From the NCBI GenBank assembly GCA_023485205.1, contig JAMCZX010000004.1, positions 1-17,251 on the forward strand: a stretch of DNA of 17,251 nucleotides. The letters are read 5' to 3'. This document shows, piece by piece, positions 1 through 15,075 of this stretch. The notes below the pieces were generated by a model. That model saw only the letters and a list, made by a program, of their open reading frames with translations. It did no database searches and was not told the DNA's origin. The stretch comes from Candidatus Omnitrophota bacterium. Its GTDB lineage: Bacteria > Ratteibacteria > UBA8468 > B48-G9 > DTJG01. Within the stretch, counting starts at the first letter, position 1; every line of letters begins with the position of its first letter. The position numbers and the translations under genes were made by a program.

Positions 1-100
1 TACATTCCATTACATCAAATGCATTTGCAATTAAAATATCTTCATCCGCCAAAGCAGCTCCTATTCTTTTTTCTCCCAAATCAAGTCCAAGAATTTTCAT
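1..100 (-). CDS. ruvX: RuvX/YqgF-family pre-16S rRNA nuclease, 5' part only
   Basis: Only the first 33 codons are inside the window; the gene runs off the left edge. The reverse strand from 100 translates as MKILGLDLGEKRIGAALADE followed by DILIANAFDVMEC. The opening MKILGLDLGEKRIG with Asp7 is the hallmark first strand and loop of the YqgF/RuvX RNase H-like fold, where this Asp is one of the metal-binding catalytic residues. The family trims the 5' end of 16S rRNA precursor and was earlier called a putative Holliday junction resolvase. Its start lies 20 bp inside the end of folP, so it is probably co-transcribed and translationally coupled with folP. No Shine-Dalgarno is visible in front of the ATG, in keeping with coupling. 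The rest of the protein cannot be judged. Confidence 0.85.
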   Translation of the reverse strand, partial: MKILGLDLGEKRIGAALADEDILIANAFDVMEC

Positions 101-926
101 AATTTATTTTATATACAGTATTAAGTGCTCTTTTGATTTCTTTTACATCATGAACACGAAATATTTTTGCTCCATTAATATAAGCAACTACACAGCTGGC
201 AATGCTACTTTCTAACCTTTCCTCCACAGGTCCATTATCCCCCTGTATTTTCCCTAAAAAAGATTTTCTTGATGTTCCAATAAGTATTGGTTTCTCTAAA
301 AAAGTAAATTCTTTCAGCCTGTTTAAAATTAAAAGATTATCTTCCACTCTTTTCCCAAAACCAATACCAGGGTCTATTATAATATTTTCAGGATTTATTC
401 CTCTTTTTTCTGCAAAATCAATTCTTTCTTTAAAAAAATCCTTAACTTCTTTTATAACATCCTTGTAAAATGGATTTTTTTGCATAGTTTCAGGTGTTCC
501 CTGCATATGCATTAAAACTACAGAACATCCGGCATTTTTAATCACTTCTGCCATCCTATTATCATATCTCATTGCATAGATATCATTAATAATACCAACT
601 CCGTTTTCAAGTACTTTTTCTGCAACTTTACTTTTATAGGTATCACATGAAATTGGAATTTTTATCTCTTTTTTTAACGAAGAAATTAAAGGAACCAGTC
701 TATCTATTTCATCTTCTTCTTTTAAAGGTAAAGAACCAGGTCTTGTTGATTCTGCTCCAATATCCACTATATCTGCACCTTCAGATTGTATTTCTATAAC
801 ACGATTATAGGCTTTATCAAAATCAAAATATTTGCCACCATTAAAAAATGAATCTTTGGTAATATTAACAATACCCATTACCAAAGGCTTATTAGTTATT
901 GATATTTTAATTGTCTCTAAATTCAT
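81..926 (-). CDS. folP: Dihydropteroate synthase
   Basis: A 281-residue protein of normal length for DHPS, which condenses 6-hydroxymethyl-dihydropterin diphosphate with p-aminobenzoate in cytoplasmic folate synthesis. All the TIM-barrel signatures are present in order: MGIVNITKDSF (17-27), DIGAESTRPG (55-64), the CDTYK strand (94-98), ND (114-115), MHMQGTP (139-145), DPGIGFGK (185-192), GTSRKS (217-222) and RVHDV (257-261). These supply the pterin pocket (Asp95, Asn114, Asp185, Lys221) and the diphosphate-binding Arg257 and His259. The start codon lies 1 base after the stop of the class II aldolase, and the 3' end overlaps ruvX by 20 bp, so aldolase-folP-ruvX look like one transcript. Two pieces of a folP-like sequence recur at 2815-2891 (see there). 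The identification is firm. Confidence 0.96.
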   Translation of the reverse strand: MNLETIKISITNKPLVMGIVNITKDSFFNGGKYFDFDKAYNRVIEIQSEGADIVDIGAESTRPGSLPLKEEDEIDRLVPLISSLKKEIKIPISCDTYKSKVAEKVLENGVGIINDIYAMRYDNRMAEVIKNAGCSVVLMHMQGTPETMQKNPFYKDVIKEVKDFFKERIDFAEKRGINPENIIIDPGIGFGKRVEDNLLILNRLKEFTFLEKPILIGTSRKSFLGKIQGDNGPVEERLESSIASCVVAYINGAKIFRVHDVKEIKRALNTVYKINYENSWT

Positions 927-927
927 T

Positions 928-1578
928 TTATAATTTTTTTAATAAGGTCCTACGAAAATCTTCAGCCGGCAGATTATCAATTGCATCTGCTTCCTGTTCT
1001 GTAAAATATCTCATCTTACCAGCAAGTGTTCCTGCCAAAATTGTTTTAGCGCTATCTTCTACTACCCAGCTTCTGGAAAAAGCCTCCTTCAAACTTTCTC
1101 CTACACAAACCACTCCATGGTTTATCAAAAGAACCACATTATATATTTTTATTTGTTCAACGACTACTTCTCTAAGTTCCTGGCCTCCAGGAACCACATA
1201 AGAAACAATTGGAACTTTCTTGCCAAGTAATGCCACAAAATCCGGACAAAATGGTTTAAAATCTATACCAGCAGATATTAAACCAATAGTTAACGGGGGA
1301 TGTGTATGTATTACTGCTTTTATTTCTGAACGCTGAAGATAACATCCAAGATGCATAGAAACTTCACAGGTTGGTTTTAGTCCCTCTACAGCACCTGTTT
1401 TAATATTCAATTTAACCCATTGTTCAGGGGCTATTTCATCAAGAGCAAATCCTGTGGGGGAAAGATAAATAAACTCTCCATCTCTTGCGCTTATATTACC
1501 ACCCGGTCCCACAGCCAAACCTTTTTCAATAATTTTTTTACCATACAAACTTAGATGTTCTCTTATTTCTTTTTCCAT
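928..1578 (-). CDS. Class II aldolase/adducin family protein (fuculose-phosphate aldolase-like)
   Basis: A 216-residue single-domain protein of the zinc-dependent class II sugar-phosphate aldolase/epimerase family (FucA, AraD, MtnB). The fold markers are GPGGNISAR (24-32), the phosphate-loop SPTG (40-43), Glu72 in CEVSMH, the zinc ligands His91 and His93 in the HTHPP motif, and the third ligand His154 in LINHGVV. Members cleave or epimerise short sugar phosphates such as L-fuculose-1-phosphate (to dihydroxyacetone phosphate and lactaldehyde) or L-ribulose-5-phosphate. The sequence alone does not settle which substrate applies, so no symbol is given. An AAGGA Shine-Dalgarno sits 5-9 bases before the ATG. 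The gene follows the VapC-like toxin by 21 bp and precedes folP by 1 bp. Its placement with folP could instead point to a pterin-related aldolase role, but the zinc and phosphate motifs look like the sugar enzymes. Confidence 0.88.
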   Translation of the reverse strand: MEKEIREHLSLYGKKIIEKGLAVGPGGNISARDGEFIYLSPTGFALDEIAPEQWVKLNIKTGAVEGLKPTCEVSMHLGCYLQRSEIKAVIHTHPPLTIGLISAGIDFKPFCPDFVALLGKKVPIVSYVVPGGQELREVVVEQIKIYNVVLLINHGVVCVGESLKEAFSRSWVVEDSAKTILAGTLAGKMRYFTEQEADAIDNLPAEDFRRTLLKKL

Positions 1579-1599
1579 TTTTCTTCCTTTCTATATTTA

Positions 1600-1998
1600 T
1601 TAAGGTTTTATTACTTTGATACCTAAATTTTGAATACCTTTATCATAAGTGAAAATTTCTTTATCTCCTGAATTTTCCATATAAGCAGCAATATAACAAT
1701 CAACAATATCTCCTGAATGGATTTGCCATATTTCCAAAGTTCGTTCCATAATTTTTTTGTTTTTCATGTAAATGCCATTTAAGAAAAGAATTCTTTTTAA
1801 ATTTTCAATAATTTCTATTTTTTTTATTTTATAAAAACTTTTTAATACGAATATTACTTGTAAAAAAACTATGTCTAATAATTCCACATTAAGATTTCCA
1901 TTATCCAATTGTAAAAAAAATTTTTCTAAATCTTCCGGTTGTTTTTCTTTTTCTTCAACAAGATATCTTACAATTACATTTGTATCTAAAAATTTCAT
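1600..1998 (-). CDS. vapC: PIN-domain toxin, VapC-like
   Basis: A 132-residue protein of VapC size whose N-terminus (MKFLDTNVIVRYLV) is the PIN-domain first strand with the metal-binding Asp5. The C-terminal acidic cluster is Asp97 and Asp100 in SGDIVDCYIAA, and Asp119 lies in the TYDKGIQ strand. VapC toxins are Mg-dependent ribonucleases that cut tRNA or rRNA. One expected acidic residue is not seen: helix 2 normally reads like LAEVVWVL with a catalytic Glu, while here it reads FLQVIFVL with Gln47 (codon CAA at 1858-1860). Activity may be reduced, or another acid may substitute. The start overlaps the antitoxin stop in an ATGA arrangement (1995-1998), the usual coupled layout of such modules. 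The family call is firm; toxin activity is uncertain. Confidence 0.88.
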   Translation of the reverse strand: MKFLDTNVIVRYLVEEKEKQPEDLEKFFLQLDNGNLNVELLDIVFLQVIFVLKSFYKIKKIEIIENLKRILFLNGIYMKNKKIMERTLEIWQIHSGDIVDCYIAAYMENSGDKEIFTYDKGIQNLGIKVIKP

Positions 1999-2243
1999 AT
2001 ATATTTTTTTGTAAATTCTTTCACAGTTGCTTTTTCAATTTCTTTTTTGGTAAGTATTTTATTTTTATTATATTTACTTAATGCCCCTTGTATTTTTCTA
2101 ATATCTTTTTCTTTTACAGGAACAAGTACAAGTCTGTTTTTTTCTTCATATATCTGTACTTTTTCACCTATTTGAAGACCATATTTCTTTCTTAAAAAAG
2201 CAGGAATTACAACCTGCCCTTTGTTAAATATTTTGGTAAGCAT
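1995..2243 (-). CDS. vapB: AbrB/MazE-type antitoxin, partner of the PIN toxin
   Basis: An 82-residue protein beginning MLTKIFNKGQVVIPAFLRKK, the swapped-hairpin SpoVT-AbrB DNA-binding fold (about residues 1-45, with QVVIPAFLRKKYGL and GEKVQIY as its signature). The lysine-rich C-terminal half (about 46-82) would be the toxin-binding arm. The ATG at 2243 is chosen because a good Shine-Dalgarno (GGAAGGAA) lies about 10 bases upstream. The reading frame continues up to a TTG at 2303, but that stretch coincides with the promoter and a palindrome, so it is not coding. Such antitoxins repress their own operon, alone or with the toxin. The stop overlaps the toxin start by 4 bp. The gene lies just after mscL but has its own promoter. 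Confidence 0.88.
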   Translation of the reverse strand: MLTKIFNKGQVVIPAFLRKKYGLQIGEKVQIYEEKNRLVLVPVKEKDIRKIQGALSKYNKNKILTKKEIEKATVKEFTKKYI

Positions 2244-2264
2244 ATATTTTTTATTTCCTTCCAG

Positions 2265-2284
2265 GTTATACTCTATAGTATAAC
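2265..2284. promoter_or_regulatory. Perfect 20-bp palindrome, likely antitoxin operator
   Basis: GTTATACT-N4-AGTATAAC: 8-bp arms without mismatch around a 4-bp centre. It covers the -10 box of the toxin-antitoxin promoter, exactly where an autorepressing AbrB-type antitoxin dimer would block RNA polymerase. That it is the operator is an inference from position and symmetry. Confidence 0.65.
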
Positions 2285-2303
2285 ATAATATAAAAACAGT
2301 CAA
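2277..2303 (-). promoter_or_regulatory. Promoter of the AbrB/PIN toxin-antitoxin operon
   Basis: On the minus strand TTGACT (2303-2298) is followed by TATACT (2282-2277) after 15 bases, or by TACTAT (2280-2275) after 17 bases. The -35 box matches the consensus at five of six positions. It starts 15 bp beyond the mscL stop codon and leaves a 5' untranslated stretch with a clear Shine-Dalgarno before the antitoxin ATG at 2243. Confidence 0.65.
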
Positions 2304-2318
2304 ATTTAAGAACAGAAA

Positions 2319-2777
2319 TTATTTTTCAATAGGGTTAAGTTCTGTTGTACAATATGGACAACGAATTGCCTTTATTGGAATAGTTGACATGCAGAATGGA
2401 CATTCTTTTGTATTTGAAACTGCAGCCGCCGCATCAGCACGTTTCAATCTATTTATAGCCCTGACAATAAAAAAAACTACAAAAGCAATGATAAAAAAAC
2501 TTACTATTGTATTCAGAAATAATCCATAGTTTATAGTAATAGCACCCGCCTTTTGAGCTTGAACAAGGGAGGCATAAGGACCAGGAATTACCCCCTGTTT
2601 AAGTACTATAAAAAAGTTTGAAAAATTAACCTTTTTTAGTAAAAGACTTATAGGCGGCATTACAATATCAGAAACCAAAGATTTAACTATTGAACCGAAA
2701 GCCGCTCCAATAATTATTCCAATGGCCATATCAACAACATTTCCTTTCATTGCGAACTCTTTAAATTCTTTTATCAT
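2319..2777 (-). CDS. mscL: Large-conductance mechanosensitive channel MscL
   Basis: A 152-residue inner-membrane channel that opens under membrane tension to release osmolytes. The N-terminal amphipathic helix and TM1 read [20 protein letters not shown], and the constriction-zone sequence [23 protein letters not shown] (20-42) is canonical. A periplasmic loop (about 50-83) and TM2 (about 84-107) follow. Instead of ending in the usual helical bundle, the cytoplasmic tail carries CPFC (126-129) and CPYC (140-143), a zinc-ribbon-like knuckle known in a subset of MscL proteins. The start codon is unusual in its surroundings: no Shine-Dalgarno precedes it, and the ATG and the next five bases lie in a sequence that also matches the 3' part of tyrS. 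The start is still right, because MscL proteins open with MIKEFKEF. Confidence 0.95.
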
Positions 2778-2812
2778 ATGATTTTAACGGCTTTTTGTTT
2801 AATGAGTTTTTT
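2770..2812 (-). pseudogene. tyrS-derived fragment (S4-domain codons) abutting mscL
   Basis: Plus-strand 2770-2803 matches 3572-3604 inside tyrS at 31 of 33 aligned bases, with one extra A. On the minus strand the fragment reads [11 protein letters not shown] against [11 protein letters not shown] (residues 358-368 of the tyrosyl-tRNA synthetase in this window). The differences keep or nearly keep the protein: TTA/CTC (Leu), AAG/AAA (Lys), GCA/GCC (Ala) and one Arg/Lys. This suggests the fragment comes from a diverged but once functional tyrS rather than from random decay of the copy nearby. The match runs through the mscL ATG. It is too short to encode anything. Confidence 0.75.
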
Positions 2813-2814
2813 TT

Positions 2815-2891
2815 AAATTAAAAGATTATCTTCTACTTTTTTACCAAAGACTTATTAGTTATTTGTATTTTGATTATCTCTAAATCCATTT
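2815..2891 (-). pseudogene. Chimeric folP remnant (5' end joined to an internal piece)
   Basis: Two folP pieces lie head to tail. Plus 2844-2889 matches folP 881-926 at 40 of 46 bases and reads MDLEIIKIQITNKSLV against the folP N-terminus MNLETIKISITNKPLV. Plus 2815-2847 matches folP 326-358 at 30 of 33 bases and reads GKKVEDNLLI against folP residues 191-200 GKRVEDNLLI. Some 170 codons that separate these pieces in folP are missing. The junction falls at a shared TTTGG, as in a deletion or template switch at microhomology. The reading frame breaks at the junction. The tyrS-like fragment follows directly on the mscL side. Confidence 0.8.
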
Positions 2892-3163
2892 CTCATTTCT
2901 TTGAATTTTCCATTAACAAACTTATGAATTATACTGGAAATATATGTCTGATATGGTAAACCCTCAATTATCGCTTTCTTCTGCAATTCAAGTAAATCCC
3001 TTTCTGAAATTCTAATGTTTAATCTTTTATCTTTCTTTAAAGTAGTTCTTGCATATCGTATCAAGTCGGATTTTCTTTTTGATGGGTTTTTAACGGTAAC
3101 CCATTCTCCTTTTTCAAAACTATCCAGTATTCGTTTTTCTTCTTTTGACAATCTTATTTTCAT
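2855..3163 (-). CDS. CopG/ribbon-helix-helix antitoxin (BrnA-like)
   Basis: A 102-residue antitoxin of the type that follows BrnT toxins. The N-terminal region carries EEKRILDSFEKGEWVTVKN (8-26), then a basic linker (RYARTTLKKDKRLNIRIS, to residue 53), whose RLNIRIS strand (47-53) starts the ribbon-helix-helix DNA-binding domain. Helices RDLLELQKKAIIEGLPYQTYISSIIHKFVNGKF (55-87) complete it. The start overlaps the toxin stop (3160-3163) and is preceded by GGAG seven bases upstream. Homologues usually end shortly after the helix. Here the last 11 residues (NGFRDNQNTNN) are encoded by the folP remnant read out of frame, so the natural stop has been lost and a tail gained. The body of the domain is intact, so function is likely retained. 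Confidence 0.85.
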   Translation of the reverse strand: MKIRLSKEEKRILDSFEKGEWVTVKNPSKRKSDLIRYARTTLKKDKRLNIRISERDLLELQKKAIIEGLPYQTYISSIIHKFVNGKFKEMRNGFRDNQNTNN

Positions 3164-3438
3164 GATTTTTCTCCAAAATAAATTTTTGTTGCTTTTCTAC
3201 TCGGTATTATTGTTTTTAAAAATATTTCTTCATCATTTTCAATATAAGGAACAAGATATGCATATTTATTTATTCCGATTACCAATATCCGTTGCCCGGT
3301 ATATTTATTTTTATTAGGATGTTCATAATCATCCAGTATATTCCCATTTTCTATATGCAAAATTATATCTTCAAAACAAATTCCTCTGGTTTTCTTAAGA
3401 CGTGTACTTTTATCAGAATTCCAGTTTATGTGTTTCAT
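3160..3438 (-). CDS. BrnT-family toxin (COG2929/DUF497)
   Basis: A 92-residue protein whose layout fits the BrnT RNase-like fold: an opening INWNSDK strand-helix (4-10), LKKTRGICFEDIILHIENG (14-32), HPN (40-42), two strands (QRILVIGINKYAYLVPYIE, 49-67), and the closing EIFLKTIIPSRKATKIY (71-87), which is the family's most recognisable motif. BrnT toxins inhibit translation by cutting RNA and are neutralised by the antitoxin encoded immediately downstream, which is the order seen here. The -10 box of its promoter lies 7 bases before the ATG and there is no Shine-Dalgarno, so the transcript may be leaderless. The family call rests on motif recognition; activity is inferred. Confidence 0.8.
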   Translation of the reverse strand: MKHINWNSDKSTRLKKTRGICFEDIILHIENGNILDDYEHPNKNKYTGQRILVIGINKYAYLVPYIENDEEIFLKTIIPSRKATKIYFGEKS

Positions 3439-3445
3439 TTATTTG

Positions 3446-3466
3446 ATTATATCACATTATCACATT
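3446..3466 (-). promoter_or_regulatory. BrnT-operon promoter region with two tandem 8-bp direct repeats
   Basis: A perfect -10 hexamer TATAAT occupies 3451-3446 (minus strand). Two adjoining copies of AATGTGAT occupy 3466-3459 and 3458-3451, touching the -10 box. No clear -35 is present (TGCACA at a 16-base spacing is the best candidate). Ribbon-helix-helix repressors often bind closely spaced short repeats, so these are good candidates for the antitoxin operator. A start point about 7 bases after the -10 would fall at or next to the ATG at 3438. Confidence 0.5.
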
Positions 3467-3484
3467 GTGTGCATTTTGGAAAAA

Positions 3485-4684
3485 TTATAATATTTTTATT
3501 TTTGCGAATTTGCCTTTGCCATATTTTATAACTGAACCGTCAGAAACATATTCATTAAAATTCTCAACTAATTTATCATTGATTTTAACTGCCTTTTGTT
3601 TAATTAATCTTTTTGCTTCAGAGTTTGAATAATTAAATCCCAAAACAAGAACAGAAATAATATGAATTCTACCATTTATTAAGGCTTCTTTAGAGATTTT
3701 AATTTCGGGTATATCTGTTGGATTTTCTTTATTTTTAAAAATTTTATCAAACTCAATTCCAGCCGTTTCTGCTTCCTGTTTCCCAAAAAATTCTTCTACA
3801 ATAGTCTTTGCTAAAAAAAATTTACCATCTCTTGGATTTGTTTCTATAACCTTTTTAAAATCATCTATAGGGATTTTGGTAAGAAGAGTAAAGTAATGCT
3901 CCATTATATTATCAGGTATAGACATAATCTTACCAAACATATCCTGTGGTGTTGTATTTACAGGTATATAGTTTTTATAACTTTTGCTCATTTTCATTTT
4001 ACCATCTGTTCCAACAAGTATTGGCATGGTTATAACAATCTGTTTTTCCTGTCCAAAAAACTCCTGTAAAGACCTGCCTGCAAGAAGATTGAATTTTTGT
4101 TCTGTCGCACCGATTTCAATATCTGAATTTAATGCAACAGAATCATATCCCTGTAAAAGCGGATAAAAAAATTCATGCAAAAATATCGGTTTACCTGATT
4201 TATATCGTGCGGAAAAATCATCTCTTTCAAGAATCTGGGCAACAGTAAAAACAGAAGCAACCTTTATAAAATTCTCAAGAGAAATTTTTTTTAACCAGTC
4301 TGAATTATAAACAAATTCGGTTTTTTCAATAGAAAGTATATTTGAAATCTGTTCCTTATATGTCTCTAAATTATTTTTTATTTCTTTTTCAGAAAGGATA
4401 GGTCTGGTTTCATTTCTCCCTGTCGGGTCCCCAATTCTTGCAGTAAAATCACCTATTAGAAAAAGAATTTTATGTCCTAATTCCTGAAAATCTTTTAGTT
4501 TTTTTATAACCACTGTATGACCAAGATGTATTTCCGGACTTGTTGGGTCAATACCATATTTTATTCGTAAAGGTTTTCCGATTTTAAGAGAATCTGTAAT
4601 TTTAAGTTTTAATTGATTTTCATCAATAATATCAACTGTTCCCCTTTTAATAATTTCTATTTGCTTTTCAATATCTTTTTCCAT
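3485..4684 (-). CDS. tyrS: Tyrosyl-tRNA synthetase
   Basis: A 399-residue class I aminoacyl-tRNA synthetase that charges tRNA-Tyr in the cytoplasm. The Rossmann core begins around KYGIDPTSPEIHLGH with the HIGH-equivalent HLGH at 53-56. Further core motifs are IGDFTARIGDPTGR (77-90), the tyrosine/tRNA region YPLLQGYDSVALNSDIEIGATEQKFN (174-199), and KMSKS at 231-235. The C-terminal S4 RNA-binding domain (about 335-399) contains [15 protein letters not shown] (356-370). This belongs to the TyrRS branch with HLGH and KMSKS signatures, and length and motifs are complete. The gene diverges from lacI across a 195-bp AT-rich gap; no leader such as a T-box is visible there. A piece of a closely related tyrS sequence is found again at 2770-2812. 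Confidence 0.96.
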   Translation of the reverse strand: MEKDIEKQIEIIKRGTVDIIDENQLKLKITDSLKIGKPLRIKYGIDPTSPEIHLGHTVVIKKLKDFQELGHKILFLIGDFTARIGDPTGRNETRPILSEKEIKNNLETYKEQISNILSIEKTEFVYNSDWLKKISLENFIKVASVFTVAQILERDDFSARYKSGKPIFLHEFFYPLLQGYDSVALNSDIEIGATEQKFNLLAGRSLQEFFGQEKQIVITMPILVGTDGKMKMSKSYKNYIPVNTTPQDMFGKIMSIPDNIMEHYFTLLTKIPIDDFKKVIETNPRDGKFFLAKTIVEEFFGKQEAETAGIEFDKIFKNKENPTDIPEIKISKEALINGRIHIISVLVLGFNYSNSEAKRLIKQKAVKINDKLVENFNEYVSDGSVIKYGKGKFAKIKIL

Positions 4685-5893: not shown

Positions 5894-5966
5894 AAAAGAT
5901 ATGAAAGAAAAAGAAGAAATTTTAAAAGAAAAAACAAATAATAAAACAGAAAAGGAGGAAGAAATC
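5885..5966 (+). promoter_or_regulatory. Two tandem strong ribosome-binding sites with in-frame starts
   Basis: AGGAGG at 5885-5890 precedes an ATG at 5901, and AGGAGG at 5953-5958 precedes an ATG at 5967. Both starts are in the same frame, so the first adds 22 residues made almost only of Lys, Glu, Thr, Asn and Ile. The stretch is almost pyrimidine-free. The first site overlaps the lacI stop (5891-5893). The second start gives a canonical short prepilin leader. Confidence 0.7.
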
Positions 5967-6791
5967 ATGCAAAAACAAAAGAAAAATAAAAAAGGTTTTA
6001 CCCTCATAGAGCTATTGGTAGTAATAGCCATCATTGCTATACTTGCGGCAATGTTGCTACCAGCTTTAGCAAAAGCAAGACTTGATGCAGAAAAAACAGT
6101 ATCTATGAATAATTTATATCAATTAACTCTTGCATCACTTCTTTATACACAGGACTATAATGGATGGTTTCCTATCAATTATGCCAATGCTCCTTTATAT
6201 ACCATTCAAGGTACAGCTCAAATACTTGCGGTACAAGGATATATACCAAGTTTTAATTGGGGAGGTGGAGTATGGCCTGCACCGGGAAATGCCACTCAAA
6301 ATTGTTTAGTAATGGATCCGACCGTATTTAATCCAAATCCTTATGAACCCGTATGGTATAGCAACGTTTATTGGAATTATGCTTTTGGAGATTATGAACT
6401 AAATGGATACCTTTATTCACAAGTAGGTAATTATCCATTTGCTAAATTAGATCTTATTTCTCCACCCTCTCAAATTTTTCTTTGGGGCGCACCTATGGCC
6501 ACTTATGGAGATGATAATATATTTGCAAGAAAAGATGAAGAAGCAAATGCTGGCATATACCAGACATTATGGAATTGGGATGGGGGAACAGAAAGAGGAC
6601 CGTATTCTGTAACAAATCCAAATATGGGTGGAGGAGTAAATTTATCATTTCTTGATGGGCATGTAGAATATGTGCCATATAGTAAAATTTCACCGACATG
6701 GTTCAATTCTAATAGTGCAGTTGCTCATAATTTTGCTGATACAGCTCAATCTTTTTACCCATGGAAAGGACCATATGACTTTGGTTGGTAA
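5967..6791 (+). CDS. Type II secretion/type IV pseudopilin-like protein with DGH motif
   Basis: From the ATG at 5967 the protein has 274 residues: a basic leader [10 protein letters not shown], the prepilin peptidase site after Gly10, then [20 protein letters not shown] with Glu15 as Glu5 of the mature protein. The hydrophobic helix (11-31) anchors it in the membrane and packs into a pseudopilus. The rest is a Trp/Tyr/Asn-rich extracytoplasmic domain ending with [17 protein letters not shown] (Asp230-Gly231-His232), the processing-associated DG region common in Planctomycetes and Lentisphaerae. The His expected ten residues before Asp230 (H-X9-DG) is Met220 here. An upstream start at 5901 would add a 22-residue charged extension; I prefer 5967 because prepilin leaders are short. 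Its position between a LacI regulator and huge exported proteins suggests a substrate-specific secretion or surface-display role, which is inferred. Confidence 0.88.
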
Positions 6792-6828
6792 TATATTATG
6801 ATAAATATTAAGACTTAGTATAAACTGA

Positions 6829-6854
6829 AATCTATCCCGTAGAATGGGAAGATT
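6829..6854 (+). other. Intercistronic hairpin between pseudopilin and first GH42-like gene
   Basis: AATCT-A-TCCC pairs with GGGA-AGATT: nine base pairs with one bulged A and a 7-base loop. It is followed by TAAAAAA rather than a run of T, so it is not a standard intrinsic terminator on this strand. It could trim or stabilise the messenger between the two cistrons. The rest of the 99-bp gap shows only the Shine-Dalgarno before 6891. Confidence 0.4.
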
Positions 6855-6890
6855 AAAAAACTGGTTTTGATAATTGTCAAAAGGAAAAAG

Positions 6891-9800
6891 ATGAAAAATA
6901 TTGGTGGTGTGATATGTGGAATTTTTTTGTTTACTGTTGTCTGTTTTGCCGCTAAAAGCCTGCCTGTCGGTTCTAATTTATGGAAAGCAAAAATAAGTCT
7001 TGGACAGGGAAAAGGAACAGTTAAAAAACTTGGGAATAACACATTGGAATTTAATGTTTTCATAAACAGTGTCAGTAATTATTCTGAAGATACTGAAATG
7101 AAAGCAGGTATTGTAGATTTCATTCTTAAAAATCCTGTGAAATTACCTTCTGATGTTACTGGATTTTCATACTGGATAAGGTCAAACAACTACGGTGGAA
7201 TATTTCGTTTTTTAATAAAGGATAAGACCGGTGCATTATATGCTCTTGGCACAAAGTTTAGCGGTCTAAGTTCTATTCCTGACACTTCCACCTGGTGTTA
7301 CGGTGAAAGTTTTCATTTTAATGATACTGAAATGGGCAGGGTTGACCCATGGGTAATGATAAGACTGGATAAAAAGGATTATTATTCTATTCCGCATGGA
7401 AAAATCTTTCTTGTAGGATTCCGATTCATTCTTACTCATACAGGTAATTTGCAAACAGATATTTCCGATGTTTCATTTTTAAAATTGAATAAAAAGCCAG
7501 GGAATTATTGGGTTATAAACCCTGATACTGCATGGTGCAACAGAACCAATAGCGTGGGATTATCCGCTTACGGCTGGAATGGTATGAGCCAATCCATGCA
7601 ATTAAACAGGCCTCATATACTAATATCAGATATGGGTCTGCCACCTGGCAAATATATGATAAGATGGGAAATACTTGCAGTTGATGACTGGAAGATAATA
7701 ACAACTGGTAAAAACATTATAAATGTATCAGAAAAAATTCCAATTTCTCCATCCACAGAAAAGGTTATTTCTTTTCCACTTTTACCAAGAGGAATTTATC
7801 ATTTAAGAATAATTGCAATCCCTGAAAATGGAGGAAATCCAATAGAAAAGTTTTGTTATTATAAAATCATTCGTACTAACATTAAAAAATTTATCAGAAC
7901 AAATCTCTCAGGAAAACTTATAAATTTCTCAGGTATCAATATATTTCCAAATTCCAAAAATGCTATGGCAAAAATCAGAATCTCTGGTATTAAACAGTAC
8001 AAAAATGTTGTTTTAATATACAAAGTTTATTCCACTTCTGAAAATCTACTGAAATCCGGACAAATTTTCGTTAATACCAACAAACAGGTTATTATTCCAT
8101 TAAATTCTTGTTTTAACATGAGTCCCGCAATAAGAATGCTTGTAGAATTAAAAACTTCCTCTGGTAGGCTGCTGGACGAAAGTGACCGTATGTTTGGAAT
8201 TAAATCTGTAGAACCTGTTTTTGGTCCTGCAGTATCAAAACAGGGATTTTTAAAAAATTCCATATTACGTGATAAACAGGACTGGAATGAAGGAACCACA
8301 CCATTTTATTCTGATTTTTCCAAATATTCAAAAGACTTAAAAGTGTGGCTAAAAGAAGCTAAGGAAGATGATTATAATGCAGTAGAATTATCTGCACCAT
8401 GGGTTGAAATGGAACCTATGCCTGGAATATATGATTTTTCATGTCTTGATAGGATTACTAATATGGTTTCAAAATATGGATTGAAAGTTATATGGCGTAT
8501 TCATGCTCTTGCAGAAAATACTCCAATCTGGGATTATGGCTCATTCCAGGAAAATCAGTATGGTTGTGCACAGGGTTTATGGTCTGGCAGTTCAAATCTG
8601 ATTTTCGGACCAACTAATAAAAATTATAATCATGCAATTGACAGATTTTGCCTGGAGATTTCCCGACATTATGCAGGGAATTCTACAGTTTTAGGTTATT
8701 CAGTGGAAGGATTATTTTTTGACCATGGATACCTTGATATGCCATGGTTAAATCAATATGTAGATTATTCACAAACCAGCAAAAATGCATTTGTCAGATA
8801 CCTGAAAGCAAAAGGTTATACACTAAATAAAGTCAACAGACTTTTCCACAAAGATTACAAAACATGGGCTGATATGTCTTTGCCAATACCTTCGTTTCAT
8901 TTTTCTTCACAGGGAAATCTTCTTCCTAATTATAGTCAACAATGGAAGGAATTCATAAATTATAAAATCAAAGTTATCGGTGACTATTACATGAATATGT
9001 TGAAATCTTTGAGAAAAGGAGATAATTCCTGTCTAATATATGTATATGCTGTTCCTGAAATATGGGAATTTCAAAGCAGCAGATTTGTAAAAAATAATAT
9101 TTTCCTGGCAGGAGGTGGTATGGAAAAACCTTTTCCATATCGTGCTAATATTGTAAGAACAAGATATGAACCCATAGGTAAAGTTGCCAGAACAAAAGAA
9201 CTTGTGGATATTGGATATTCCAATCTGCTTTTCAACAAACCAGGATGGAATGCTTTTGGAAATTACTGGTTTCTTCACTGGACATTAAACAATGTCACTG
9301 CTGATATAAAAGCCGCTGAGCTTAGGATAAAAGACTGGAACTCTGTTTGTGACCAGATTGCAGGAGTAAAACAGATTGTTGCCTCAGGTTCAAACAATCC
9401 AATTTTTTTATATTCTCCTGATGTTCTGCTTTATGTTTTCCAAAGTACATTTGTCCCACGCCTTTATGATTACTGGAGTCCTCTGGATTTTATGATAAAT
9501 AAAAACAATCTTAACATTGAAATTGTATCAACAAAAGAATTGCCATTTATGCATATATACCGTGCACCTTACATAATACTTCCTTATTTTTCTACAGTCG
9601 TTGGAAGTCAAACGAGAAAAAGAATAATAAAGTATGTAAAAGATGGAGGAACACTTTTCATGGAAGCAACATTTGGCAGATATGACATAAATAAACCCGG
9701 GCAGAAAAATATTTTCCTAAAAGAACTCGGACTTCCGGGTATAGCCAATGAATCTACTGACTGGAGTAAAAATAATGTGCCTGTATACCTAACCGGAAGT

Positions 9801-10409
9801 AAATTCTTTCCTAAAAAAACAGATATTTATTTCAGGACAAACGGCTGGAATCCTCCAATAGAAAAAGAGATTACCCCATGGATATTTACTACCAATAGAA
9901 GTTTTTTTAAGATTTTTTATCCTTTACCAGGAAATTATAAAACTATCGGCACACTATCAAACGGGTCTCCAGCAATAACCTATTCTAAAATAGGTAAAGG
10001 CAGAGTTATAATTTTCTGGGGAGTAATAGATTGGGCGGCATCATCTAATCTTTTACCGGCAATAAATAAATTAGTATACGGAAGTACAAGCAATAGAAGT
10101 TTTGCCGGAGGACTCATAGTTAATTTTTATAAGAAAGACGGCATTTATTTCGCAATGGGCAGAAGGTTTGCTTCATATAATATTATTTCCCAATTAGAAA
10201 ACGGGAACCAGAATATGGTAAAATCTGCTGGTCCTCGTGTTTTGTATGTAAAAACATCCAACCTTCCAGAAGGCAATTATAAAATCACAGATATCCTGAA
10301 CAAAAAAGAATATGGGATTTTCAGTTCTGAAAAAATAAAGAAAAAAGGAATTCCAATCAATCTTTTTAAAGGTCAGGCATTTCTGTTAAAAATAGAAAAA
10401 ATACAATAG
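6891..10409 (+). CDS. Large exported GH42-like glycoside hydrolase, first of a tandem pair
   Basis: A 1172-residue protein. The ATG at 6891 is chosen because AAGGA lies about 6 bases upstream and it gives a clean signal peptide (MKNIGGVICGIFLFTVVCFA, cleaved near residue 21). The TTG farther upstream at 6867 has neither. After N-terminal beta-rich regions (about 25-440) a TIM-barrel typical of GH42-type beta-galactosidases spans roughly 470-800. It includes APWVEMEPMPGIYDFSCLDR (503-522) and the helix SKNAFVRYLKAKGYTLNKVNRLF. Likely catalytic acids are Glu606 in GYSVEG (acid/base) and Glu760 in RTRYEP (nucleophile). A Rossmann-like trimerisation/glutaminase-like domain (about 833-1000, with YVKDGGTLFMEATFG) and a C-terminal beta domain follow. 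Substrate is unknown. Sequence is distant from classical GH42, so activity is inferred from fold motifs. Confidence 0.75.
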   Translation: MKNIGGVICGIFLFTVVCFAAKSLPVGSNLWKAKISLGQGKGTVKKLGNNTLEFNVFINSVSNYSEDTEMKAGIVDFILKNPVKLPSDVTGFSYWIRSNNYGGIFRFLIKDKTGALYALGTKFSGLSSIPDTSTWCYGESFHFNDTEMGRVDPWVMIRLDKKDYYSIPHGKIFLVGFRFILTHTGNLQTDISDVSFLKLNKKPGNYWVINPDTAWCNRTNSVGLSAYGWNGMSQSMQLNRPHILISDMGLPPGKYMIRWEILAVDDWKIITTGKNIINVSEKIPISPSTEKVISFPLLPRGIYHLRIIAIPENGGNPIEKFCYYKIIRTNIKKFIRTNLSGKLINFSGINIFPNSKNAMAKIRISGIKQYKNVVLIYKVYSTSENLLKSGQIFVNTNKQVIIPLNSCFNMSPAIRMLVELKTSSGRLLDESDRMFGIKSVEPVFGPAVSKQGFLKNSILRDKQDWNEGTTPFYSDFSKYSKDLKVWLKEAKEDDYNAVELSAPWVEMEPMPGIYDFSCLDRITNMVSKYGLKVIWRIHALAENTPIWDYGSFQENQYGCAQGLWSGSSNLIFGPTNKNYNHAIDRFCLEISRHYAGNSTVLGYSVEGLFFDHGYLDMPWLNQYVDYSQTSKNAFVRYLKAKGYTLNKVNRLFHKDYKTWADMSLPIPSFHFSSQGNLLPNYSQQWKEFINYKIKVIGDYYMNMLKSLRKGDNSCLIYVYAVPEIWEFQSSRFVKNNIFLAGGGMEKPFPYRANIVRTRYEPIGKVARTKELVDIGYSNLLFNKPGWNAFGNYWFLHWTLNNVTADIKAAELRIKDWNSVCDQIAGVKQIVASGSNNPIFLYSPDVLLYVFQSTFVPRLYDYWSPLDFMINKNNLNIEIVSTKELPFMHIYRAPYIILPYFSTVVGSQTRKRIIKYVKDGGTLFMEATFGRYDINKPGQKNIFLKELGLPGIANESTDWSKNNVPVYLTGSKFFPKKTDIYFRTNGWNPPIEKEITPWIFTTNRSFFKIFYPLPGNYKTIGTLSNGSPAITYSKIGKGRVIIFWGVIDWAASSNLLPAINKLVYGSTSNRSFAGGLIVNFYKKDGIYFAMGRRFASYNIISQLENGNQNMVKSAGPRVLYVKTSNLPEGNYKITDILNKKEYGIFSSEKIKKKGIPINLFKGQAFLLKIEKIQ

Positions 10410-10417
10410 AGGGAAAT

Positions 10418-13400
10418 ATGAAAAAAATATTGCAGGTCTTTATAATTACTGTTTTAACAGTTTCTATTAATTGTATGGCTTTTTCTTTTTCTCAGTACCA
10501 GATTTTGCATCGCTTAAGCATTCCTGATAATTGGAAACCTGCAAAATATATAAGTCTTAATCATATTGCAGAAAAAAACATATTAAAAATATCTTTTACA
10601 GGAGTCAGAGTAAATACAAACCTTAATTTTTATCTTAAAAAACCTCTTCCACTTGATACAAAAGTAAAATCAATTGACCTGTGGGCATATCATCCTGCTA
10701 CAGAAATTAATCAAGACACAGGTTTTTCACTTAATGCAATTTTTTTGGATAAGACTGGTAAAAAAATAATCTCAGGTTTTCAATGGGATAATACATTTAT
10801 AGCCAGCCATATAGGACCTCCAAATGTGAGAGAATCTGATATCTGGAAATATCTTTGGTGTAAACCCCCTAAAAATGCTGTAAAATTCATCGGATTCAAT
10901 ATTAATATTTTTTATATAGAAAATGTTCCTGTTCTGACAGAAAAAAAGAGTTTATTTATTAAGGATATAGCGTTTGACAGGATTAATTATTCAAAAACAA
11001 AACTGTATTATGTTGTATTGGGACCACAAGCAACCAGCAGTACATCCTATGCTTTGACAGAACAAAGTGGTGGAAGTAATATTCCTTATGTATTACTGAA
11101 TGACCTTATTGATCCGATAAAAGGAACTGACCCAAATCAGATAAAATTCTGTGAGAGACCCAGCATAATAAATCTTTGTGTTTCTGTTTACAATGCTTCA
11201 GACACGTGTGTTTATTCATCTATATACAAAAATATCAGAATAAATAATTCACCAGAAAATTGTGCCCCGGATTTTTTTAAAAAAATACTAATACCAATAA
11301 CAGCACCCGGTACATACTGGATAACAGGCAGAAGTTATAATGCGATAAATGATACATATTTCACAACAGACAGGGTAAGACTTGTCATTATCAAAGGAAA
11401 TGGACCTAAACCTGCAAAAACTGAAAATAAAGACCTGTTAACTATTAACCCAGAAAAGCCATGGGATGTTTTGACCAGACATGATAAAAAACAGATACAT
11501 TTTCATATACGAATTTCAGAATTGCCAAAAGAAAAAGGGCCTTTTACTATACACTATACACTAATTCCTTATTCAGTATGGTTTCCTGGTTTTAATGAAA
11601 CAAATAGACCTGTAATACTAAATAAAACTATTACAGTTAATAAATCCGGGAATATAACGGTTCCGTATAAACCGAAAATGGATGTGGAGATTGTTGCTGC
11701 TGAATTATGGGATGGAAATAAAGTGATTGACAGAGAAGATAGACCCATAGGCATAAAAAATAGTATAAACACTAATCCTAAGTTTACTGAAAAAAATAAA
11801 ATACCATCATTGAAAAACCTTACAAAAAATACAATTTGGATAAACACTACATGTTGGCCATATACCAGATTTTCTTCAGAACTATATAAAGAACTTGCAG
11901 AAAACATTGACCAGTTAAAAAAATTAACTCCCAATATAGGAATATCTTTTCCCATAACTGAATTTGAGCCATTACCCGGGGTATATAACTGGTCCAGTTT
12001 AACACCTATATTTAACCTTGCAGCAAAATATGGATGCAGAATTATTCCTTATATGGCGGAAAAATATCCATTTAAATGGGAACCTGTGGAATTCTGGCAA
12101 AGAAGTGATGGATGTGTAAGCAGAAGTACTATATTATGGGGATATGGTGTGGGAAGAGAGTTGTTTTTCAATGGCAAATACAATCCTGGTAATGTAAAAC
12201 AATTCAATCAACAATTTGCAAGAAGATATTTAAATAACCCTGGTCTTGGAGGATACTATTTTGAAGACGAGCATATTGATACAAGATGGATACCGCCATG
12301 GCCGGCATCCTATGATAGTGCCAACCATACCCGTTTTTGTAATTATCTTAAAAGAAAATATAAGAATATCAGCAAACTGAATACTGTTTATAATACAAAT
12401 TACAAAAATTTTTCAGAAGTTAAGATTCCAATAAGCGGAAACCCTATGTTTCCCAAAAAAATTATGTTTGTTGACTGGATGAGTTATCAGGTATGGCAGG
12501 TTAATAAATTCATATATACAGACCAGGTAAAAGTAGTACGGGATATTGACCCCAAAAGACCCATTATATTTTATCTAATCGCATATCCATATTATAAATT
12601 TCTCAAATATCTTGCCACTCATGACTGTATGATTGCCAATGGCGGAGTTAATTCAAGTTCTATGTCAATATTTAATAATGATAAATACTATGATGTAAAG
12701 GGACTTTTTTACAGGATGGAACCCATTAGTATGTGGTACTACAATTCCAGATCATCTGTAAGCAATTATCCACAGGCAGGTTTTGACTCAATGATATTTG
12801 GTCAGATTACAGTAGGAGGAAGAGGACTAAACTTTCATATATTTATGTCGCCTTCTCATTTTATTTATAAAGATGCCCTAAAACCTGACCATGGGACAGG
12901 CATAGATAAAATAGTCCAATATCTTCCAATTTTCAAGGAACTTAGAGATGCCAGAAAACTGACTGACCCTGTGGTATTGATGAATTTATATAATAGCTGT
13001 GACTATTTTGATGGACCATTTCAATGGAATACATGGCCAATGTTTTTTGCTTTGTATAACAGGCTTCATTATGAACCCTATGTGGTTTGGCCTGGTTTTC
13101 CTTTAAATTATATGAAAAAAGCAAAAATTGTTTTTGTAGCTGGAGCCATAATTGATAATCAAGAGTTGGAAGATATTAAAAACTTTCTACAGAAAGGGGG
13201 AAAAGTGGTTCTACAGAACAATGCGGCAAAATACAGCCTTGAAAATCCGGATGGTAATTATACTTATTATCTGTTTAATGCTCTTGGAATAAATTATAAA
13301 AACCCAAGCGGAGAACATCTTAAAGGAGTAGATATTCCTTATGCCATATATAATTATGGAAAAGGACAGATTTTTCATGTGAAGAACTTTTGTTATGACT

Positions 13401-13759
13401 GGATAAAAATAATACCAGTAATCATGAAGTGGGCAAATTTTAATGAAAATGAAAGACTGTTTGATTCTAATAATGAATTTACAATGATGCATGTTCTTAA
13501 AAAAGGAAATACTTATTATCTTGTGACAACTTATAGAGTTGATGACCCAATGACTGGAGTTGTGGGTCCTTTGCAATCTAAAAATATCAAATTAAAATTT
13601 CTTAAAAAACTGCCTAAGGGAAAATATAAGGTGACCAAAATATGGAATCATGAAAATTTTATAGGGATATTTACACATACTCAACTGGCTTCAGGGTTTA
13701 ACGCAGAAGTATATGAAAACCATCAAATGAAAATATTCAAAATAGAACCTATAAAATAA
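10418..13759 (+). CDS. Large exported GH42-like glycoside hydrolase, second of a tandem pair
   Basis: A 1113-residue homologue of the preceding protein, starting 8 bp after it with a GAGGG Shine-Dalgarno. A signal peptide occupies about residues 1-22. N-terminal beta domains (to about 470) are followed by a GH42-like barrel (about 485-840): FEPLPGVYNWSSL mirrors MEPMPGIYDFSCL of its neighbour, and NHTRFCNYLKRKYKNISKLNTVYNTNYKNF mirrors its helix. The candidate acid/base is Glu616 in GYYFEDEH and the candidate nucleophile Glu768 in YRMEP, 152 residues later, close to the spacing in the first protein. The trimerisation-like domain (about 850-945) contains AKIVFVAGAIID and FLQKGGKVVLQNNAAKY. The pair clearly arose by an old duplication but differs throughout, so the two may act on different linkages of one polymer. 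Its substrate is unknown. Confidence 0.75.
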   Translation: MKKILQVFIITVLTVSINCMAFSFSQYQILHRLSIPDNWKPAKYISLNHIAEKNILKISFTGVRVNTNLNFYLKKPLPLDTKVKSIDLWAYHPATEINQDTGFSLNAIFLDKTGKKIISGFQWDNTFIASHIGPPNVRESDIWKYLWCKPPKNAVKFIGFNINIFYIENVPVLTEKKSLFIKDIAFDRINYSKTKLYYVVLGPQATSSTSYALTEQSGGSNIPYVLLNDLIDPIKGTDPNQIKFCERPSIINLCVSVYNASDTCVYSSIYKNIRINNSPENCAPDFFKKILIPITAPGTYWITGRSYNAINDTYFTTDRVRLVIIKGNGPKPAKTENKDLLTINPEKPWDVLTRHDKKQIHFHIRISELPKEKGPFTIHYTLIPYSVWFPGFNETNRPVILNKTITVNKSGNITVPYKPKMDVEIVAAELWDGNKVIDREDRPIGIKNSINTNPKFTEKNKIPSLKNLTKNTIWINTTCWPYTRFSSELYKELAENIDQLKKLTPNIGISFPITEFEPLPGVYNWSSLTPIFNLAAKYGCRIIPYMAEKYPFKWEPVEFWQRSDGCVSRSTILWGYGVGRELFFNGKYNPGNVKQFNQQFARRYLNNPGLGGYYFEDEHIDTRWIPPWPASYDSANHTRFCNYLKRKYKNISKLNTVYNTNYKNFSEVKIPISGNPMFPKKIMFVDWMSYQVWQVNKFIYTDQVKVVRDIDPKRPIIFYLIAYPYYKFLKYLATHDCMIANGGVNSSSMSIFNNDKYYDVKGLFYRMEPISMWYYNSRSSVSNYPQAGFDSMIFGQITVGGRGLNFHIFMSPSHFIYKDALKPDHGTGIDKIVQYLPIFKELRDARKLTDPVVLMNLYNSCDYFDGPFQWNTWPMFFALYNRLHYEPYVVWPGFPLNYMKKAKIVFVAGAIIDNQELEDIKNFLQKGGKVVLQNNAAKYSLENPDGNYTYYLFNALGINYKNPSGEHLKGVDIPYAIYNYGKGQIFHVKNFCYDWIKIIPVIMKWANFNENERLFDSNNEFTMMHVLKKGNTYYLVTTYRVDDPMTGVVGPLQSKNIKLKFLKKLPKGKYKVTKIWNHENFIGIFTHTQLASGFNAEVYENHQMKIFKIEPIK

Positions 13760-13896: not shown

Positions 13897-15075
13897 ATGG
13901 AAAAAAAATACATTCAGAGTCTTGAAGAAACAGCAGAATATTTTAAATTTATGATAAAAAGCAATCCTCATCGAAATTCTTTAGAAGCAACATTGTCGGC
14001 AATGAATGGAAAATCAAGAAAAAATCCTGTATTTTATCTTGGATATATCAATAACCCTGATGATAAAACTACTGGAGAAGATGCATTGATATTACAGAAA
14101 ATAAAAATAAAAAACCCTAAAGAACAAGATTTGGCTAATGAAATTATTCAATTACTTGCTCCTCTTAAAATGCTAAATCCTATTACTCCTGCACTTGATT
14201 TAGGTAGAGGAACTGGGACTTTAATTCCTTCATTTGGAATTCCGCTCAATCCCAGACTTAATGATGCACCATCTTATACCTTAACCCTTGACCAGATTCT
14301 TTCTTTACCAGAACCTGACCCTGCTATATCTGGATTAATGTCTGAAATACATGAAAAAATAGATTTTATCAAAAGCAAAATATCAATTAAAGATGGAATC
14401 TATATTCATTTACCTGATATGCAAGGACCCTTTAATATTGCTCATATGATTGGCGGTGAAGATGTTTTATCCGGTCCTTATATTGATCCGGAAAAATTTC
14501 ACAGGGTTATGGATAAAATTACAAATTTCTGGATTTCTGCTGAAAAAATGTTAAGACAATGGATAGGTTCAGAATGGTTATATCCTGTTGAAAAACAAAC
14601 TGTTAGAATTGCAGAATGTTCTACAAATCTTGTGTCAAGAAATATATATGAAAAATTTATTCTTCCATATGATTTAAAAATTGCTAACTATGCTGAACAA
14701 ATGAATTTACCTTTAAATATTCATACATGCAGTGGCCCACATGTTTTTCATGAAACTATGGATAATATCCCGAATATACTTTTTACTGAAGCCGGATTTA
14801 TTAAAAATGCTGTTGCTGGCTGGACACCTATAGATGAAGCATTAAAAACTATTAATGACCGTCCAATTGTTTTAAATATTGGTCAGGAAATTTATAACAC
14901 AGAAAATCCTGAAACAATTATTAAAAAAGATTTTGATCTTTATGAAAAAAACCACCACCTTCTATTTGGATATACTTTAATGGAATGGAAAACAAAAGAC
15001 AAATCAAAAATTTGTAATTTACATAGAAAAATGGATGAATACTGGTTAGAAAAAGGCGGGCTAAATTTGATTTAA
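13897..15075 (+). CDS. Uroporphyrinogen-decarboxylase-superfamily protein, not HemE
   Basis: A 392-residue protein. The ATG at 13897 is chosen because an AAAGG lies 10 bases upstream; the GTG at 13867 in the same frame has no ribosome-binding site. The URO-D/methyltransferase barrel is recognised from its C-terminal half: SRNIYEKFILPYDLKIANYAEQMNLPLNIHTCSG, where His276-Thr-Cys278 is the H-x-C pair that binds zinc in the corrinoid methyltransferases MtaA/MtbA, followed by the IPNILFTEAGF strand and a GWTPIDEALKTINDRPIVLNIG segment. The arginine-rich PVWxMRQAGR opening of true uroporphyrinogen decarboxylase is absent, so it is not a heme enzyme. A third zinc ligand is not obvious; Cys373 near the end is a candidate. 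Similar proteins often accompany sugar-degradation genes in Lentisphaerae-type genomes, with unknown reactions. It may handle a methyl group or a related C1 unit. Confidence 0.75.
   Translation: MEKKYIQSLEETAEYFKFMIKSNPHRNSLEATLSAMNGKSRKNPVFYLGYINNPDDKTTGEDALILQKIKIKNPKEQDLANEIIQLLAPLKMLNPITPALDLGRGTGTLIPSFGIPLNPRLNDAPSYTLTLDQILSLPEPDPAISGLMSEIHEKIDFIKSKISIKDGIYIHLPDMQGPFNIAHMIGGEDVLSGPYIDPEKFHRVMDKITNFWISAEKMLRQWIGSEWLYPVEKQTVRIAECSTNLVSRNIYEKFILPYDLKIANYAEQMNLPLNIHTCSGPHVFHETMDNIPNILFTEAGFIKNAVAGWTPIDEALKTINDRPIVLNIGQEIYNTENPETIIKKDFDLYEKNHHLLFGYTLMEWKTKDKSKICNLHRKMDEYWLEKGGLNLI

Follow-up and report, generated by a model that had tools for sequence, protein, structure and literature searches.

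A patch of 113 bases, at positions 2779-2891 of a 17,251-nucleotide stretch of Candidatus Omnitrophota DNA that was analysed as a whole (hereafter the window), consists of three overlapping matches to the genes tyrS and folP, all on the strand of these genes, and is flanked on both sides by their complete working copies (Table 1). The three scraps are genuine fragments of tyrS and folP, and the patch is a genuine and tidy scar of a known, ordinary kind. It is rather likely to be what is left of a tandem duplication, since deleted, that had covered the segment tyrS-(mscL-TA1)-fucA-folP, where TA1 is the PIN-domain toxin pair of Table 1, TA2 below is the BrnT-like toxin with its CopG/RHH-type antitoxin, and primes mark scraps or putative lost copies. 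Such a scar would show a bacterial gene cluster that was doubled and then pared back almost to its old order, and two side effects are visible, namely a tail newly added to an antitoxin and the absence of a Shine-Dalgarno motif before the channel gene mscL.

Table 1. Features of the window between folP and tyrS, in window coordinates
Feature	Position	Strand	Remarks
Intact folP	81..926	-	Only copy found in the genome (on contig C75)
Class II aldolase (fucA-like)	928..1578	-	Conserved neighbour between tyrS and folP
PIN-domain toxin / MazE-AbrB-fold antitoxin pair (TA1)	1600..2240	-	Between mscL and fucA
mscL	2319..2777	-	GGAGG preceding the sister allele is missing here
TTTATCAT, 8-bp microhomology, joint mscL/tyrS'	2770..2777		Common to mscL 5' end and tyrS 3572-3579
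tyrS' scrap, S4-domain region	2779..2813	-	30/35 identical to intact tyrS 3580-3614
folP' internal scrap (GKKVEDNLLI)	2811..2848	-	34/38 identical to folP 322-359
folP' 5' scrap including start codon	2841..2891	-	45/51 identical to folP 878-928
CCAAA, 5-bp microhomology, joint folP' internal / folP' 5'	2844..2848		
CopG/RHH-type antitoxin, 102 aa	2855..3163	-	Last ~10 residues from folP' scrap
BrnT-like toxin, 92 aa	3160..3438	-	Pfam PF04365, E 3.4e-6, 27.7 bits, below gathering score 34.5
Intact tyrS	3485..4684	-	

On the minus strand the genes run in the order tyrS, BrnT-like toxin, CopG/RHH antitoxin, mscL, MazE/AbrB-fold antitoxin and PIN toxin, fucA-like gene and folP, with mscL and the PIN/AbrB-like pair sitting between tyrS and fucA. 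The aldolase gene is fucA-like, and the antitoxin is BrnA-like by its neighbour. The assembly from which the window derives comprises 2.0 Mb in 86 contigs and is estimated to be 90.8% complete; a second full folP or tyrS was not found in it.

The three pieces were detected by a plus-strand BLASTN comparison of the window with itself, with E-values of 3.5e-12 for the folP 5' piece and 7.7e-8 for the folP internal piece over the extents of Table 1, and 2.7e-7 for the tyrS piece when nine joint bases are included (3572-3614 against 2770-2813, 38/44, one gap). Beyond these, one 24-base pair (E 0.006) was the sole direct self-match at E<=0.01. The significance of the matches was assessed by using positions 2779-2891 as query against the window with 2701-2950 masked, which gave bit scores of 66.2 for the folP 5' piece, 51.8 for the folP internal piece and 41.9 for the tyrS piece. 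When the patch was shuffled 1000 times with its dinucleotides preserved, the best scores were 28.6 +/- 2.8, with a maximum of 44.6 and none reaching 50. Both folP pieces thus score higher than any of the shuffles; the tyrS piece by itself falls in the far tail of the distribution, below its maximum. Tiles of 113 bases from both strands of the window scored at most 38.3 bits once those connected with the patch or its sources were set aside. The tyrS piece in addition matches the tyrS of a sister lineage (see below) over 26 bases at 92%. The permutation check on chance similarity suggested by a first-pass annotation of this DNA was thereby run. The view expressed there is right in that the patch contains fragments of tyrS and folP joined at microhomologies, being neither a chance resemblance nor an intact element.

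The base counts of that annotation were reproduced for the folP internal piece (30/33, against 326-358) and the folP 5' piece (40/46, against 881-926), and its count of 31/33 for the tyrS piece is made up of 23/25 ungapped bases over 3580-3604 and the eight bases TTTATCAT at a one-base offset. The indel that it placed in the tyrS piece is unneeded, since positions 2770-2778 are the 5' end of mscL itself, which occurs in contig C75 without any scrap; the apparent indel is the joint. Its placement of the patch between the antitoxin and mscL requires amendment, for the patch is not only intergenic: its part 2855-2891, read in another frame, doubles as the 3' end of the reading frame of the antitoxin. 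The two folP pieces are joined at shared bases as it had described, the exact bases common to both sources being CCAAA.

The joints differ in the extent of their shared sequence, and that between folP' and tyrS' has only about three shared T. When pairs of breakpoints were drawn at random between 100 and 4600, at least eight shared bases were found in 0.07% of the joints, at least five in 1.4% and at least three in 9%. With the scraps included, the minus-strand order is tyrS - TA2 - folP 5' - folP internal - tyrS 3' part - mscL - TA1 - fucA - folP. The scraps lie on one strand and in the order of a tandem duplication, an arrangement into which a random placement of three pieces falls once in 48. 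This collinear order and single orientation, of which the first-pass annotation made no use, point to tandem duplication.

Gene order was surveyed in stretches spanning tyrS and folP from 20 of the 28 genomes considered (own included), all 20 from relatives within the same taxonomic order, by locating only eight of the window proteins in each stretch and leaving other genes between them unannotated. The order tyrS-fucA-folP on one strand was found in all 20, two of which have a gene cut at the contig end; in one stretch (L141) fucA and folP are 1.4 kb apart. The genomes left out were G021 and G022, in which tyrS and folP lie about 0.7 kb apart on one contig by their coordinates, G026, with the two genes on different contigs, and G018, G024, G027 and G001, which lack a match to tyrS, to folP or to both. 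A single folP match was obtained in 25 of the 28 genomes (own included) and none in the other three, which are 54-79% complete; a complete second folP, which had been proposed for a search of relatives, was found in none of the 28. The only congener among these genomes, G001, has no match to folP, mscL, the antitoxin or tyrS and is uninformative. A tyrS scan of genome contigs yielded 75 loci, the best being from Candidatus Omnitrophota MAGs at 64-65% identity.

Two further contigs overlap the locus. Contig C71, which starts at window position 2565, agrees at 13993 of 14000 compared positions. Of the seven differences, four lie in 2580-2850, and one of these, at 2850, is in the patch, where C71 carries the folP base. 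Contig C75 equals window positions 1-2503 with one mismatch (2502/2503), beyond which identity drops to 83%, with 46 mismatches in 2504-2778. After 2503 come a different half of mscL, 31 bases of spacer and the end of a tyrS with 79% identity to that of the window over 239 bases; tyrS thus ends 31 bases before mscL, which is preceded by a strong Shine-Dalgarno motif (GAAGGAGG), and neither a TA pair nor a patch is present. The mscL of C75 is a hybrid, with residues 1-99 equal to those of a database mscL on a 3.2-kb contig (P0123) and the rest equal to that of the window. In the protein database the hybrid is listed on one contig only, which has the length of C75, and the mscL of the window on five. 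The mscL of P0123 shows 86% identity, and a database tyrS on a 57-kb contig (P0242) shows 82%. The last ~570 bases of C75 (about 11800-12341) are probably sister-lineage DNA joined by the assembler and less likely a real recombinant; the tail shows the mscL-tyrS arrangement of the sister either way, but nothing of the sister DNA beyond mscL. Recombination within mscL at 2503, first considered because of the drop to 83%, was set aside once the C75 mscL proved to be a hybrid found on a single contig. The exact antitoxin with its scrap-derived tail is present on 10 contigs and the mscL of the window on 5 (longest 117,234 bases in both cases, presumably one and the same contig), and although these may include the contig of the window and C71 and may not be independent samples, their number argues that the structure is not an error of a single assembly.

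Under the tandem-duplication reading, the duplicated order on the minus strand would have been tyrS - ... - folP' / tyrS' - mscL - TA1 - fucA - folP, with a novel joint at which the inside of folP' (about 322) was fused to the 3' part of tyrS' (about 3605-3614). The middle of folP' would then have been lost between two CCAAA sites, and the last ~90 bases of tyrS', together with the spacer to mscL and the Shine-Dalgarno motif of mscL, between two TTTATCAT sites. TA2, the antitoxin of which now reads ten codons into folP', would have taken the place of the sequence that once separated tyrS from folP', where fucA' would be expected. The scraps are beyond chance and lie on one strand in the order that this reading predicts, the unduplicated order is kept in all the stretches from relatives, the close spacing of tyrS and mscL in the C75 tail is the adjacency expected of the second unit, and the joints share eight, five and about three bases. 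On the other side, an intact duplication was seen in none of the 28 genomes, the key joint between folP' and tyrS' is the one with the fewest shared bases, and BLASTN revealed no remnants of mscL', TA1' or fucA' in the stretch from the antitoxin to tyrS. The chance value of the order is not overwhelming, the tyrS piece alone stays below the best shuffle, and an identity of 86-90% between scraps and working copies means that the event is old or the source not local.

The same joints and fragment lengths could have arisen from templated filler DNA, if TA2 was inserted between tyrS and mscL and a template-switching break repair copied nearby pieces of folP and tyrS into one of its junctions. Pieces of 35-51 bases with microhomology at their joints at one edge of a TA pair, and both sources within about 2.5 kb, are in keeping with this explanation; it is considered somewhat unlikely, since nothing would align copied pieces on one strand in collinear order, as all three are, and since the place of the tyrS piece is that at which the sister has tyrS bordering mscL, a position that a deletion accounts for without any copying. 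That the patch is a functional element, such as an RNA or a regulatory site, merely resembling tyrS and folP is barely credible in view of three coding-sequence matches of 66, 52 and 42 bits; its conservation in relatives, once raised as a possibility, found no backing, as no match at E<=0.01 was obtained in the 20 stretches and base 2850 is not the same in the window and C71. A search of Rfam over 2600-3600 led to the rejection of an RNA element: its two matches (E 0.25 and 0.68) fell far short of the respective gathering scores. A more elaborate form of the duplication reading, and a highly improbable one, is that TA2 landed between the two copies, that any collapse of them by recombination would have removed the pair and been punished by its toxin, and that the duplication was therefore lost only piecemeal at microhomologies, the patch being a fossil of an addiction module that protected it; if true, this would be a mechanism, open to test, by which addiction modules shape genomes.

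It may also be envisaged that a diverged folP/tyrS segment from a related species was recombined in and then mostly deleted, a course of events that is possible and yet distinctly unlikely. The scraps differ by 10-14% from the working copies, and the TA2 antitoxin has no relative at E<=1e-3 in the 27 other genomes, so that this pair probably came from outside. Codon by codon, the base changes (synonymous plus other) are 4+1 in the tyrS piece, 2+1 in the folP internal piece and 1+5 in the folP 5' piece. Synonymous changes thus number 7 of 14 against an expected fraction of about 0.2 (P 0.012 for at least 7 of 14), and P is 0.001 for at least 6 of 8 in the first two pieces. The first-pass annotation had described the differences as mainly synonymous or conservative; the synonymous excess holds for the three pieces together, but in the folP 5' piece only one of six changes is synonymous. 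Its reading of this pattern as a sign of imported, diverged homologues rather than local copies is not supported. When the sister tail served as outgroup for 35 bases, the scrap agreed with the local tyrS against the sister at five sites and with the sister against the local gene at three; of two further sites, one is changed in the scrap only and one differs in all three sequences. Three of the five differences in the tyrS piece, all synonymous, are thereby placed most simply on the branch of the working copy and one on that of the scrap, and one is compatible with either; the scrap is slightly nearer to the local tyrS than to the sister allele (28/35). Most of the difference between the tyrS piece and the local gene would thus, most simply, have accrued in the working gene, and because of this even a local duplicate should show an excess of synonymous changes. 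Such an excess in a gene scrap is no proof of a diverged donor, as the working copy evolves too. The private change in the tyrS scrap turns a codon for R in both working genes into one for K, and the R-to-K change in the folP scrap affects a residue that is R in 18 of the 19 relatives covering the position; scraps in decay would be expected to change amino acids at conserved positions in this way. With counts this small, and with an outgroup comparison confined to tyrS, import may yet have been the source.

The TA2 antitoxin has 102 residues against 91-93 in most of the best 120 homologues listed. Its extra tail, GFRDNQNTNN, is a read-through into the folP' scrap, the last ten codons being derived from the folP 5' piece. 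Eleven of 13 aligned homologues end near residue 92 and the other two (P0034 and P0043) carry other tails, so that a tail is tolerated. The usual stop has been lost, the reading frame running on into the scrap. Homologues are named as CopG/RHH proteins or antitoxins, some with PF12441 or PF21983, and neither the BrnT-like toxin nor its antitoxin has an NCBIfam match. The homologues, up to 82% identical, are named from several other phyla. An origin of the pair as a local gene family was rejected, the antitoxin being found in one of the 28 genomes, namely its own.

At mscL, no motif comparable to the Shine-Dalgarno of the sister allele precedes the ATG; a clear Shine-Dalgarno is also lacking at folP, the PIN toxin, the BrnT-like toxin and tyrS in the window. 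The gene was found in 14 other genomes, 12 of which also have tyrS, on another contig from tyrS in all 12, and the mscL of the window resembles the copies in another family of the order, f3 (65-68%), more closely than those in its own family (54-61%). These observations indicate that mscL is a later insertion between tyrS and fucA, and the PIN pair probably one with it. Inspection of the translation by eye revealed a zinc-ribbon-like tail, CPFC...CPYC, at the C-terminus of MscL.

Filler DNA of microhomology-mediated end joining is stitched together from short local pieces that share microhomologies where they meet, and mixed order and orientation of the pieces are typical, though not strictly required. 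Papers on templated insertions appear to concern repair by the eukaryotic polymerase theta (PMC5068794, PMC12426944), which does not predict the collinear order of the patch. A further likeness is offered by mitochondrial gene order, where tandem duplication followed by (random) loss (PMC5745709) doubles a segment, the copies of which are lost piecemeal and may leave non-coding remnants between working genes. The present case differs in concerning a bacterial chromosome, in keeping the ancestral order save for a new TA pair and in having about 0.1 kb left. Bacterial tandem gene duplications likewise double a chromosomal segment in tandem, but those described are recent events in laboratory populations (PMC7661048), whereas here nothing but scraps with a divergence of 10-14% is left. 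Within the term combinations used, none of the titles and openings of abstracts listed dealt with this locus or with a patch of this kind.

Other features were noted in passing. In one relative (L127, 3625-4839, 404 aa), and in G004-G008, where the open frames that contain folP are of similar length, folP carries about 130 extra N-terminal residues, which are absent from that of the window and are covered by no NCBIfam model. Further along the window, positions 5901-13759 encode a prepilin-like protein and, after it, two large proteins of 1180 and 1113 aa whose starts resemble signal peptides.
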